From contig OY282441.1 of NCBI GenBank assembly GCA_958296105.1, positions 841,800-905,799 on the forward strand: a stretch of 64,000 nucleotides of DNA, written 5' to 3'. The translations under genes and the position numbers were made by a program. The notes beneath the pieces are model-generated. The model did no database searches and was not told the DNA's origin. It worked only from the letters and a program-made list of their open reading frames with translations. The stretch comes from an uncultured Dehalococcoidia bacterium. Its GTDB lineage: Bacteria; Chloroflexota; Dehalococcoidia; Lucifugimonadales; UBA1123. Shown here piece after piece: positions 23,538 through 33,204 of the stretch (positions are counted from its first letter, which is position 1; each line of letters opens with the position of its first letter).

Positions 23538-26500
23538 TCAAGGAGACCAGACCGGGGCCCAATCACCGCTGGAATGATCAGTGAGACGGGTTACTCCCGA
23601 ACCGTCCGCGTTCACCACGTATATCTCGGCGTTCCCGTCCCGTTCAGAGGCAAACGCTATGCGCCGTCCGTCAGGAGACCAATCCGGGCGCCAATCACTC
23701 TTGGAATGATCCGTGAGACGGGTGACTCCCGAGCCGTCAGCGTTCATCACGTAGATGTTGTGGTTCCCATCCCGATTAGAGCTAAACGCTATGCGCCGTC
23801 CGTCAGGAGACCAATCCGGGTACTCATCCTTCTCAGTATGATTCGTGAGACGGGTGACTCCCGAGCCGTCAGCGTTCACCACGTAGATATTCCTGTTCCC
23901 GTCCCGTTCAGAAATAAACGCTATGCGTCGTCCGTCCGGAGACCAGGTCGGTGCCCAATCATCCTCAGCATGATTCGTGACGCGGGTGACTCCCGAGCCG
24001 TCCACGTTCATCACGTAGATGTTGTGGTTCCCGTCCCGATCAGAATTAAACGCTACGCGCCGTCCGTCCGGAGACAAGACCGGGTACGCATCAAGCCCAA
24101 GCCGATTATTAGTGAGACGGGTGACTCCCGAGCCGTCAGCGTTCATCACGTAGAGATCCCAGTTCCCGTCCCGATTGGACTCAAACGCTATGCGCCGTCC
24201 ATTCGGAAACCAAGACGGGTCATAATCCAACCCACGATTATTCGTGAGACGGGTGACTCCCGAACCGTCAGCGTTCATCACGTAGAGCTCGGCGTTCCCG
24301 TCCCGACGAGACTCGAACGCTATCTTCCCGGATGGTGTGGGTGTGGGGTAGGAGGAAACCCGGACTGTGCCGGTCCAGGCCGGGTTGCGATTGAACCCAG
24401 AATGATCCGTGAGACGGGTGACGACTCCTGAGCCGTCCGCGTTCATCACGTAGATCTCATCGTTCCCGTCCCGACGAGACTGAAACGCTATGCGCCGACT
24501 GTCCGGAGACCAAGCCGGGGTGCTACCATCCCACGCAGTAGGATCAGTGAGACGGGTGACTCCCGATCCGTCAGCGTTCATCACGTAGATGCTCCTGTTC
24601 ACGTCTCGATCAGAGACAAACGCTATCTTCCGTCCGTCCGGAGACCAAGACGGGTAGCCATTACCCTCGGGGGTATCAGTGAGACGGGTGACTCCCGATC
24701 CGTCAGCGTTCATCACGTGTATCTCACCATTCCCGCCCAGATCCCGAGTAAACGCTATGCGTCGTCCGTCCGGAGACCAGGACGGGAAACTATCCTCCTC
24801 AGTATGATTCGTGAGACGGGTGGCTCCCGAGCCATCCGCGTTCATCACGTAGATCTCCCTGTTCCCGTCCCGAGTGGACTGAAACGCTATGCGCCGTCCG
24901 TCCGGAGACCAGGCAGGGTAATGATTCTCCCCAGGAGTAACAGTGAGACGGGTGACTCCCGATCCGTCAGCGTTCATCACGTAGATCTCAACGTTCCCGT
25001 CCCGAGTGGACTCGAACGCTATACGCCGACCGTCCGGAGACCAAGTCAGGACCCCATCCCACGCAGTATGATTCGTGAGCCGCGTCACTCCCGAACCGTC
25101 CGCATTCATCACGTAGATCTCAGCGTTCCCGTCCCGATAAGAATGAAACGCTATCCTCCCGGATGATGTGGGTGTAGGCGTATGCGTGGGAGTAGGCGTT
25201 GGCGTAATAGTCGGCGTGGGCGTTGGTGTATGTGACGGCGTTGGCGTATGCGTGGGCGTAGCCGAGATAGTGGGAGTAGGCGTTGGCGTAATAGACGGCG
25301 TTGGCGTTGGCGTATGCGTGGGAGTAGGCGTTGGCGTAATAGACGGCGTTGGGGTGGGGGTATGTGACGGGGTTGGCGTTGGTGTAATAGACGGCGTTGG
25401 GGTGGGGGTATGTGACGGGGTTGGGGTCGGGGTCGGAGGTGACACAGGCGTATCCGCGGCGGCGGTACCAGTGACCTTGAAAAGGCTCCCTGAGCTTACT
25501 GCCCAAGACAGTATCGCGTTGTTTCCGGCGAGATCGGTGATGGACGACCCCGACGGTACGCGAAGGCTGCCAGCAGGAACCCAAATTGTTCCGTCATCAT
25601 CCCTGTCCCCTTCCTGTACCGTGTATATGAAGATTAGGCGCGTGTCGGCGCTCTCCTCTGCGACATACTGCGCTCTGCGGGTCTCGCTGCCCATCTCCAA
25701 TCCCAGATATGGCAGTCCGCCTCCAGTATCGACAAGTACGTCCTCGTTGAACTCGACCCGTATCCGTATCTTCTCTCCCCTGCCATAGGTATCTCCAGAC
25801 AGTGGGCTATTTATGATGCCCGGCGCTCCGCCATAGATGTATGGCCGGAAAGTATCCGTGTGACTGCCTCTGACTTTCTGGTTGGGTTGGGTTGGGAGCG
25901 CTTCGTGTGCAGAGTCCAGAACTACTCCGTCGTAGGTAACGAACGATATGGAGTTGGCGGAGATGCTGATTCCGTCGTTGTCTATGTCATCTTGGGCAAC
26001 CAGATAGCTGAATGAGATATTGTTGGGACCGCAGCCGGAGTAACTCGCATCCTTCACTGCCGCTGGGCCGCTGCCTGTCTGGAACGTTAGGGAAATCCAT
26101 CCCCTGCCGCAGACCTGTTCGCTAAATCCGACTTCGACCCGGATGGCCTCGCTTGGTCCATAGGTGTCTCTTACGCCGTCACCGTCCGAGTCTATGCTCG
26201 GCTGAGAAGTGATGGTTGGGCCGCTAGTAATGTTCGGACCGGAAGAACGAGGCGCGGGCGTGGGTGTCGGCGTAATAGACGGCGTGGGCGTAGGCGTATG
26301 CGAGGGTGTCGGCGTTGGTGTAATAGACGGCGTGGGCGTAGGCGTATGTGACGGGGTATACGTAGGTGTCGGCGTAATAGACGGCGTATGCGTATGCGCC
26401 ATCGCAACCTGGACTGCGCCGGTGCCGGTCCAGGCCGGGTTGCGATCGAACCCAGAATGATCCGTGAGACGGGTCACTCCCGAACCGTCCGCGTTCATCA

Positions 26501-28343
26501 CGTAGATATCATCGTTCCCGTCCCGACGAGACTGAAACGCTATGTGCCGTCCGTCCGAAGACCAAGTCGGGGTACTTCCATCCCACGCAGTATGATCCGT
26601 GAGACGGGTGACTCCCGATCCGTCCGCGTTCATCACGTAGATGTTCCTGTTCCCGTCTCGATCAGAGACAAACGCTATCTGCCGTCCGTCCGGAGACCAG
26701 GACGGGTAGCCATCACCCTCGGGATGATCCGTGAGACGGGTGACTCCCGATCCGTCCGCGTTCATCACGTGTATCTCACCGTTCCCGCCCAGATTCCGAG
26801 TAAACGCTATGCGTCGAGCGTCCGGAGACCAAGACGGGAACCCCTCCTCCTCAGTATGCTTAGTAAGCCGGGTGACTCCCGAACCGTCCGCGTTCATCAC
26901 GTAGATGTTCCTGTTTCCGTCCCGATTAGACTGAAACGCTATGCGCTGTCCGTCCGGAGACCAAGCTGGGAAACCATCCTCCCCAGGATTATCCGTGAGA
27001 CGGGTGACTCGTGAGTCGTCCACGTTCATCACGTAGATGTCCCAGTTCCCGTTCCGACCAGACTCGAACGCTATGCGCCGACGGTCCGGAGACCAAGTCG
27101 GGACCCCATCGTCCTCAGGATTATCCGTGAGGCGGGTGACTCCCGAACCGTCCGCGTTCATCACGTAGATCTCGGGGTTCCCATCCCGACGAGACTGAAA
27201 CGCTATCTTCCCGGATGGCGGGGGCGTAGTCGCAGTCGTGGGTGTTGGAGTCGGCGTATGCGTATGCGTCATCGCAACCTGAACTGCGCCGGTCCAAGCC
27301 GGGTTGCGATCGAACCCAGAGTGATCAGTGAGACGGGTGAGCTCCGAACCGTCTGCGTTCATCACGTAGATCTCATCGTTCCCGTCGCGACGAGACTGAA
27401 ACGATATGCGCCGTCCGTCCGGAGACCAAGTCGGGGTGCTTCCGTCCCAATTGGGGTGATCCGTGAGCCGGGTTACTCCCGATCCGTCTGCGTTCATCGC
27501 GTAGATGTTCCTGTTTCCGTCTCGATCAGAAACAAACGCTATCTGCTGTCCGTCCGGAGACCAAGACGGGTAGCCATTACCCTCGGGAGTATCAGTGAGA
27601 CGGGTTACTCCCGATCCGTCCGCGTTCATCACGTGTATCTCACCGTACCCGTCCAGATCCCGAGTAAACGCTATGCGTCGTCCGTCCGGAGACCAGGACG
27701 GGAACCCATCCTCCTCAGTATGATTCGTGAGGCGGGTTACTCCCGAACCGTCCGCGTTCATCACGTAGATGTTCCTGATCCCGTCCCGATTGGACTGAAA
27801 CGCTATGCGCTGTCCGTACGGAGACCAAGACGGGAAGCCATCCTCCCCAGGATGATCAGTGAGACGGGTGACTTCCGAACCGTCCGCATTCATCGCGTAG
27901 ATGTCCCAGTTCCCGTTCCGACCAGACTCGAACGCTATGCGCTGTCCGTCAGGAGACCAAGTCGGGACTCCATCGTCCTCAGGATCATCAGTGAGACGGG
28001 TGACTTCAGAACCGTCCGCGTTCATCACGTAGATATCGGGGTTCCCGTCCCGACGAGACTGAAACGCTATCTTCCCGGATGGCGGGGGCGGGAGTGTAGA
28101 GGCGGGTGCTAGCGGGGGTGTTGGAGTGGGAGCTGCGGGATTTTCTACCTCGGCGACGACGGTTCTAACTACAGGAGCGGAGCTCGCGGGGGGGGGGGGG
28201 GTAGTTAGGGGATCCTGCGCGCACGCGACGGCGAAGACAACGGTCAGCATGAGGGAGAGGGCTTTCGGAATTCGACCTTTCCCAGCAAGCTGATTCATTC
28301 TGATCTTACGCAGTCCTAGGCAGATGGAGTTCGTCGAAGGCAT
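23538..28343 (-). CDS. giant exported lipoprotein with four six-bladed TolB/PD40 propellers and two Ig-like domains
   Basis: About 1,601 residues from ATG 28343 (GAGGA eight bases upstream); ATG 28298 is an alternative that gives a more usual signal length. The signal ends in VVFAVAC, a lipobox-like site, so the protein is probably lipid-anchored outside. Order: Pro/Thr linker; 6 PD40 repeats (28085-27290); linker; 6 repeats (27213-26410); Thr/Pro linker; two Ig-like/SwmB-type domains (about 26230-25450; [14 protein letters not shown] and [14 protein letters not shown]); Thr/Pro linker; 6 repeats (25165-24365); 6 repeats (24343-23538). The repeat core is R-D-G-N[16 protein letters not shown] followed by [10 protein letters not shown]. 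24 repeats in four sixes fit four TolB-like propellers. The probable role is extracellular binding. A 14-base C run in the coding strand follows the signal. Confidence 0.88.
28188..28201. repeat. homopolymer of 14 G (C14 in the coding strand)
   Basis: Fourteen consecutive G on the plus strand lie inside the giant lipoprotein gene and encode a run of four Pro about 9 residues after the lipobox Cys. It is by far the longest mononucleotide run I see in the window. Gain or loss of one or two bases would frameshift the remaining ~1,550 codons. Confidence 0.95.
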
Positions 28344-28554
28344 GGCGGCGGTCCTCGATACATATGCGGGTTCTGAGCGCGAAATGACGCATCCCAATGT
28401 CTCACACTGAGCCATTCCGAGCGGCAGACCGAAGCGAGCTTAGCAAATAGTCTCTGTACAGTACAGTTCCAGCAACTCTTCGTTCACGGCTCAGGGGCGG
28501 CATCTGCTTCGGTTTGTGCGTAAAGTCTATCGGGTACATCTCCCCCGATTCCCG

Positions 28555-31885: not shown

Positions 31886-32482
31886 GTGTCGAACAGCGCC
31901 AACACTCCTCCGCAAGACGCTTCGGCTCGGAGCCGGGGGCGTAAAGGCTCGCGCAAGTCTTCGCGTCCGAAACGGGTCGAAGAGCCTCCGGATGGCCACG
32001 TGGCAGTGGGCAGAATCACGGGGGCATGGGGGATACGGGGGCAGCTCAAGGTGCGGTCCGAGACCGATTTTCCGGAGCGGTTCGCGCCCGGGTCCGAGCT
32101 GCACCTGAACGGAGCGCCTGCGGTGGTGACGTCTGCCCGGCCACATCGCGGCGGTCTGGTGGTGGGGCTAAGCTCGGTGGAAGACCGCAGCGCAGCCGAG
32201 TCGCTCAGAGGCTCGCTGCTGACCATCCGAGAGGATCAGCTCGCGGCTCTCCCAGAAGGTACCTATTACCACTTCCAGCTTATCGGCATGGACGTGTTCA
32301 CGGACGAGGGCGAGGGTCTGGGGAGGATCGCGGAGATACTGGAGACTCCGGGGAACGACGTCTACATCGTGCGGAAAGAGGGGGGGCGCGACTTGCTGCT
32401 GCCGGCGCTCAAGAGTGTGGTTCTCAGTGTGGACGTGGCATCGGCGCGGATGAGGGTGCGCATGACGCCGGGTTTGCGCTGA
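31886..32482 (+). CDS. rimM: ribosome maturation factor RimM
   Basis: 198 residues from GTG 31886, 11 bases after khpA; the first ~35 residues are a Ser/Arg/Lys-rich tail not typical of RimM. Core: HVAVGRITGAWGIRGQLKV (N-terminal beta barrel, signature G-x-x-G-x-x-G), then YYHFQLIGMDVFT and GNDVYIVRKEG...LLPAL of the PRC-barrel domain. RimM binds S19 and assists 30S head maturation. The usual next genes, trmD and rplS, are absent; an intrinsic terminator and the convergent selenoprotein gene follow instead. Confidence 0.95.
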   Translation: MSNSANTPPQDASARSRGRKGSRKSSRPKRVEEPPDGHVAVGRITGAWGIRGQLKVRSETDFPERFAPGSELHLNGAPAVVTSARPHRGGLVVGLSSVEDRSAAESLRGSLLTIREDQLAALPEGTYYHFQLIGMDVFTDEGEGLGRIAEILETPGNDVYIVRKEGGRDLLLPALKSVVLSVDVASARMRVRMTPGLR

Positions 32483-32488
32483 AAGGAA

Positions 32489-32515
32489 AAGGCCCCGGCG
32501 CGAGCCAAGGGCCTT
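32489..32515 (-). terminator. intrinsic terminator of the SelW-like gene (possibly bidirectional)
   Basis: AAGGCCC (32489-32495) pairs perfectly with GGGCCTT (32509-32515) around a 13-base loop. Read on the minus strand, the stem is followed directly by TTTTCCTTTC, a good U-tract, 24 bases after the selenoprotein stop codon. On the plus strand the following bases (CGATTCGG) are poor, so it mainly serves the minus-strand gene but may also stop rimM transcripts. Confidence 0.75.
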
Positions 32516-32538
32516 CGATTCGGATTTCGGACGCTGCG

Positions 32539-32826
32539 CTAGTCGTCGGCGGCGACTGCCAGAGAATCCAGCCTGCTTCTGACGATCGCGCGCAACTCCT
32601 TGACGCGGTTGAGGTGAGGCGTCTGACCGCCCTCCTCAGCCTTGTCGTAGATCTTGTCGCCGTCTACGAAGACCTGAAGCACTCCGCCCACGCCGGGCTT
32701 GATCTCGATTGATACGTCCTTGCCACCTTCCGCCACGAACTCGTTGACCATCCAGGCCGCAACTCCGTGGTACTGTCAAGGAACGCAGTAGATGATCTCG
32801 ATGTCCATTCTGCCTTCACCAGCCAT
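32539..32826 (-). CDS. SelW/Rdx-family selenoprotein with in-frame TGA (Sec17)
   Basis: 95 residues if TGA at 32778-32776 is read as selenocysteine. ATG 32826 follows AGGAGG with an eight-base spacer. The N-terminus is MAGEGRMDIEIIYCVPU, then QYHGVAAWMVNEF. IxIxYC-V-P-U is the C-x-x-U redox motif at the end of the first strand of Rdx proteins (SelW, SelT, SelH), with Cys14 and Sec17. After the TGA the same frame gives the rest of the fold: VSIEIKPGVGGVLQVFVDGD, KIYDKAEEGGQTPHL, and the final helix. Members are thioredoxin-like thiol oxidoreductases; many have Cys here instead of Sec. Conventional calling would give a 70-residue fragment from Met26 lacking the active site. It has its own leader and terminator. 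Confidence 0.85.
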
Positions 32827-32844
32827 ACGGCAAACCTCCTGTGA

Positions 32845-32894
32845 GTTTTCTGGGGATGCTCTGCATCTAGTTTTCTGGCGATGCTCCGCATCTA
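32845..32894 (-). promoter_or_regulatory. two tandem 25-bp hairpin repeats in the selenoprotein leader
   Basis: Units 32845-32869 and 32870-32894 are adjacent direct repeats differing at two positions. Each contains an inverted repeat GATGC-NNN-GCATC (loops TCT and TCC). On the selenoprotein mRNA they would be two small hairpins ending about four bases before the AGGAGG site. They could be an RNA control element or, at DNA level, a tandem operator. Confidence 0.75.
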
Positions 32895-33204
32895 CGGGGT
32901 GTCATAATTCCCACCTATGCCAGATCTCTTATGACAATATTACATTATCACCAGAAGGCGGGGGTGTCAACGGCCTGCGCTCGGCGGGGCTGGAGCGTCG
33001 AAGCTCGACCCAACCTCAGCCAGCTCTCTGAATGAGTCCGAACGAGAGGGGGAAGCCGTATTGATTTGTGAGCGGTTGGGGGCAGGTGCTACAATTCGAG
33101 AGTGTGCGTCTCGAACGAAAGGCTCACGGAAAAGGCGGCGGCGCTCCGCGCAAACATACGCCCAGCTTGGGCGCTCAGATTGGATTACAGGGGGTCGGAA
33201 TAAG
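32895..33204. other. divergent intergenic region with ino1 promoter
   Basis: The stretch 32900-32960 is the most AT-rich in the area (ATGACAATATTACATTATC) and is likely to hold the selenoprotein promoter. For ino1, TTGTGA (33066-33071) and TACAAT (33090-33095) with an 18-base spacer lie about 110 bases before its start. I see no gene here; an open frame reading into ino1 from 33061 lacks homology upstream of the GTG at 33205. Confidence 0.5.
33066..33095 (+). promoter_or_regulatory. putative sigma-70 promoter of ino1
   Basis: TTGTGA at 33066-33071 and TACAAT at 33090-33095, spacer 18 bases. Transcription would start near 33102, giving a leader of about 100 bases before GTG 33205. Confidence 0.5.

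Follow-up and report, generated by a model that had tools for sequence, protein, structure and literature searches.

SelW-like proteins are a long-known family of bacterial selenoproteins, and in ocean metagenomes no other selenoprotein family is as abundant (PMC1088965, PMC1794560, PMC2398784): 48 sequences were found in the Sargasso Sea set (PMC1088965), and in the GOS set this was the most abundant selenoprotein family, with 427 sequences (PMC2398784). In eukaryotic SelW, the SECIS element is located in the 3′-UTR (PMC1088965). The SelW genes of Campylobacterota were missed by annotation (PMC4607533). Our literature search found no paper on SelW-like selenoproteins in SAR202/Dehalococcoidia.

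The window (the whole 64,000-nucleotide stretch of DNA that was analyzed) belongs to a Dehalococcoidia genome that consists of a single contig of 3.18 Mb, and it contains a gene that shares with the bacterial SelW-like family (PF10262; TIGR02174) a CxxU motif, the Rdx fold, a SECIS just past the UGA, and the existence of Cys homologues. It does not differ from this family in kind. Its clade has a conserved MAGEG extension at the N-terminus, along with an AAWM motif. It is almost certain, in our view, that this is a bacterial SelW-like (Rdx) selenoprotein gene in which SelA, SelB, and SelD, together with a SECIS hairpin, insert selenocysteine (Sec) at the UGA of codon 17. Comparison establishes the codon, the SECIS, the Sec machinery genes, and the predicted fold; Sec insertion itself and an enzymatic role are inferred. 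The gene is thus a new and well-supported member of a selenoprotein family that was already known, and it brings no new principle.

The Gene, Its Product, and Its Surroundings

The features of the locus are collected in Table 1. Reading the minus strand, we found a frame that starts at ATG 32826, ends at the TAG at 32541-32539, and is interrupted only once, by a TGA as its 17th codon. The earlier note had read the same start, the AGGAGG with a spacer of eight, the TGA, the open frame beyond it, and the TAG, and all of these were confirmed in the sequence. It had also anticipated that routine calling would report residues 26-95 only, and conventional ORF calling (table 11) indeed yielded just a 70-aa piece starting at Met26.

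Table 1. Positions of the features of the rdx/selW-like locus in the window.
Feature	Position	Strand	Remarks
rdx/selW-like selenoprotein gene	32539..32826	minus	95 aa; CVPU motif = residues 14-17
In-frame TGA, codon 17, at the U of CVPU	32776..32778	minus	TGA/Cys pattern in homologues
Shine-Dalgarno AGGAGG	32835..32840	minus	8-nt spacer to ATG; present in relatives too
SECIS apical hairpin: GGCC (32758-32755), loop UGGAU (32754-32750), GGUC (32749-32746)	32746..32758	minus	Covariation, RNAalifold
Whole SECIS hairpin, lower stem 32770-32764 / 32739-32733	32733..32770	minus	MFE -18.7 kcal/mol
Leader tandem repeat, two 25-nt copies	32844..32893	minus	Each copy contains a GATGC-n-GAGCATC-like palindrome
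Leader inverted repeat TGTCATAA / TTATGACA	32900..32936	minus	Near the expected transcript start
Probable promoter TTGACA - N14 - TGA - TAATGT, extended -10 type	32942..32970	minus	By eye
Intrinsic terminator-like hairpin and T tract	32491..32510	minus	Hairpin 32510-32493

The read-through product scored 48.3 bits against Pfam Rdx (PF10262; cut-off 22.6, E-value 1.2e-12) and was narrowly above the cut-off for NCBIfam TIGR02174 CXXU_selWTH (34.9 vs. 34.2 bits). The Campylobacterota SelW model NF041051 (SelTWH_Campy) likewise describes an Rdx selenoprotein, but the score of 37.8 bits against a cut-off of 88 bits places the window gene outside that equivalog. A structure prediction that used one sequence alone was of poor quality (pLDDT 59.6), and AlphaFold2 with 26 homologues and with U modelled as C gave a pLDDT of 92.6. 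In the predicted fold, a strand (residues 7-14) is followed by a helix (residues 20-37), and C14-V-P-U17 lies between strand 1 and helix 1 in a thioredoxin-like arrangement. A search of the PDB with this fold returned 22 matches with E < 0.001, all of them SelW-like, with TM-scores (normalized by query length) of about 0.64-0.77. They included mouse SelW (PDB 2npb), which has the same fold at 16% identity; the bacterial SelW-like structures 2oka, 2fa8, 2obk, 2p0g, 3dex, and 2ojl also have the same fold, at about 30% identity. The Pfam Rdx match, together with the TGA/Cys pattern at codon 17 of homologues, puts the observation far beyond chance. The product is most likely a thiol/selenol oxidoreductase, a redox role that is suggested by its family.

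The true product could instead be the 70-aa protein from Met26, as gene callers would give it, or a 16-residue peptide that ends at the UGA, the read-through of which is never complete. Such products would have neither strand 1 nor the active-site CxxU, whereas residues 10-17 rank among the most conserved in the homologues. Furthermore, in almost every relative that was checked, an AGGAGG-like Shine-Dalgarno sequence precedes the upstream ATG, whereas ATG 32751 has no comparable one and overlaps the SECIS loop. We therefore assign next to no probability to a short product and favor the 95-residue selenoprotein.

The gene is free-standing, with its own promoter-like element, leader, and terminator. 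The promoter layout TTGACA/C-N17-TAnnnT, with a TG preceding the -10 element, was found in most relatives; the element in the window was not among the matches of a consensus promoter scan. At the position of the terminator, the relatives have GC-rich hairpins with T tracts. The neighboring genes are not conserved, and they give no hint about function because rimM/rpsP are found nearby only in one close relative (L108). Elsewhere in the window, also on the minus strand, there is a 1625-aa ORF (23538-28415) with many TolB-like repeats and proline/threonine-rich linkers.

Codon 17 and the Selenocysteine Machinery

The nearest genomes of the first search (Dehalococcoidia/SAR202 and other Chloroflexota MAGs, 63-88% identity) kept the TGA and had no indels. 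Within the family to which the window belongs, all eight genomes have an in-frame TGA in this gene, including one of the same genus at 91%. A homologue was found in 112 of the 294 genomes of a class-wide sample. Codon 17 was compared in 74 distinct readable genes. It was found that 53 had TGA, 17 had TGC, 4 had TGT, and none had another codon, in a count for which the extraction pattern required U or C and which a rare third residue would escape. Cysteine thus stands at the position of U17 in 21 of the 74, which is what the earlier note had proposed to look for in homologues, and the signs of decay that it had named for close relatives (a non-TGA stop or an indel) were absent, the TGA being retained.

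A sequencing error for TGC/TGT, or a true nonsense mutation in a decaying gene, would also look like a lone TGA in an otherwise open frame. However, the TGA was found in all eight family genomes and in 53 distinct homologues, the frame past the TGA is strongly conserved, and the RNA hairpin described below covaries only where the TGA is present. Because independent assemblies of relatives carry the TGA, error or decay is refuted as an explanation, and we regard it as extremely improbable. The preferred reading of the TGA as a Sec codon was evaluated further by a search of the same genome for the Sec machinery, as the earlier note had proposed, and all four components were found: selA (521435, 434 bits), selB (1296241, 330 bits), selD (539652, 379 bits), and a tRNA-Sec that was above the Rfam cut-off and was called tRNA-SeC(tca) by ARAGORN, with the anticodon TCA.

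With these components, Sec-tRNA(UCA) would be made by SelA and SelD, and SelB would carry it and bind the downstream hairpin, whose apical loop UGGAU lies 21 nt after the UGA. The ribosome would then insert selenocysteine at codon 17 in place of termination, and the product would have the Rdx fold with C14-V-P-U17 and act as a thiol/selenol oxidoreductase.

Two further selenoprotein genes were observed in this genome. The selD gene (L027, G000:C1:539652) itself has an in-frame TGA, in the motif CAGU, and a second, diverged Rdx selenoprotein gene with a CQHU motif (L032, G000:C1:2652686-2652856) contains GCCGCC-UGGAU-GGCGG, the same hairpin as in the rdx/selW-like gene of the window.

The cysteine at codon 17 of homologues would also fit a UGA that is read otherwise than as Sec, either because the codon generally stands for Cys or Trp or through leaky near-cognate read-through. 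However, among the 37 longest ORFs of the window that do not overlap, which make up a rough gene set, 22 end in TGA; it is therefore an ordinary stop elsewhere, and the RF2 gene (prfB) is present in the genome. In addition, the Sec machinery is complete, and the downstream SECIS fits the bacterial model. A survey of the machinery in 44 genomes also argues against a non-Sec reading: the four that have neither a strong selA nor a selB above the cut-off (G014, G050, G031, and G033) carry Cys forms only. We consider a non-Sec reading of the UGA very improbable. Taken together, the machinery, the Cys homologues, and the relatives that keep the TGA support the proposal of the earlier note that the in-frame TGA is the Sec codon of a SelW-type C-x-x-U protein. 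Those of its proposed checks that were run favored it, and no result that it had named as refuting was observed.

The SECIS Hairpin and the 5′ Leader

The 48 bases from the UGA onward could be aligned without gaps. RNAalifold and direct counting each independently identified one conserved helix, between columns 21-24 and 30-33, with a loop of five; in the clade of the window gene, the TGG codon of the AAWM motif forms the SECIS loop. In this apical helix, 97.1% of cells were paired, compared to 76.3% in shuffles, and compensatory changes were found at all four of its pairs, the outermost being, for example, G-C, C-G, U-A, or A-U. All 53 Sec genes have the loop over the same base, vs. 13 of 21 Cys genes, and the apical pairing is broken in the Cys homologues. 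Relative to synonymous recodings, the mean z of the folding energy was -1.35 for Sec genes vs. -0.48 for Cys genes (Mann-Whitney p 0.004). For the window's apical segment alone, folding was no better than that of synonymous recodings (rank 0.29), and the support is at the level of the family.

The lower stem, of 7 bp, is unchanged in L108, a relative from the same genus, and is partly retained in the nearest clade, with one pair changed from G-C to A-U; further out, it is not conserved. An 11-gene Sec clade has a shifted stem of six pairs around CGUGGA, in which G is again second in the loop.

The published bSECIS model has a loop of 3-9 nt with a G in its first two positions, located 16-37 nt from the UGA, and an MFE of -7.5 or lower (PMC13188914). 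The window hairpin, with its 5-nt loop UGGAU, 21 nt after the UGA, and -18.7 kcal/mol, agrees with this model. An Rfam scan of 32400-33100 found no SECIS family at or near the cut-off. The earlier note had drawn the SECIS as a stem CCAcGG/CCUGG with the loop AGUUGCGG; this stem was rejected (62% of cells paired vs. 59% in shuffles, with no covariation support). The claim of a SECIS after the TGA stands, in the form of the next hairpin along, the conserved GGCC-UGGAU-GGUC, but the stem as it had been drawn is not conserved.

The leader repeats and the terminator that the earlier note had ascribed to the gene are both there, as a 25-nt tandem repeat and a terminator-like hairpin. The 25-nt repeat has no further copy in the genome and is absent from the relatives; a genome-wide regulatory motif is ruled out, the two copies being the sole ones in the genome. 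The leaders between promoter and Shine-Dalgarno sequence are hairpin-rich and unrelated in sequence in the window (32842-32942), L108, L110, L011, L013, and L114. The folding z was -2.3 for the window and -5.2, -3.8, -2.9, -3.6, and -3.4, respectively, for the others, with a mean of -1.9 over 14 leaders, several of which were near zero. It is conceivable but unlikely that these leaders, with their recurring structure and species-specific sequence, act as a cis-regulatory RNA, separate from the SECIS, that ties selenoprotein synthesis to the supply of selenium or Sec-tRNA.

Sec and Cys Forms across the Class

Every Sec-form genome among the 44 surveyed has at least one of selA and selB. Five draft genomes with the Sec form (G212, G137, G015, G169, and G111) lack selA or selB, gaps that are most simply explained by the incompleteness of the drafts. 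In the tree, a Cys clade of eight members (support 96/86) is nested inside a Sec-dominated clade (97/90), and this nesting suggests one switch from Sec to Cys in that clade, with a direction that is likely in a tree that is short and midpoint-rooted. Adjacent Sec and Cys copies of rdx were observed in L064 (G230) and L065 (G190) and, in another clade, in L066 (G271) and L067 (G107). It is possible that such adjacent copies are a route for the replacement of Sec by Cys.

For a lineage with poor annotation, these results supply a well-supported selenoprotein and another from the same genome. As redrawn, the SECIS is conserved across the class and is usable as a search model. The nested Cys clade, the adjoining Sec and Cys forms in some genomes, and the absence of the machinery from others make up a case in which the abandonment of selenocysteine can be studied.
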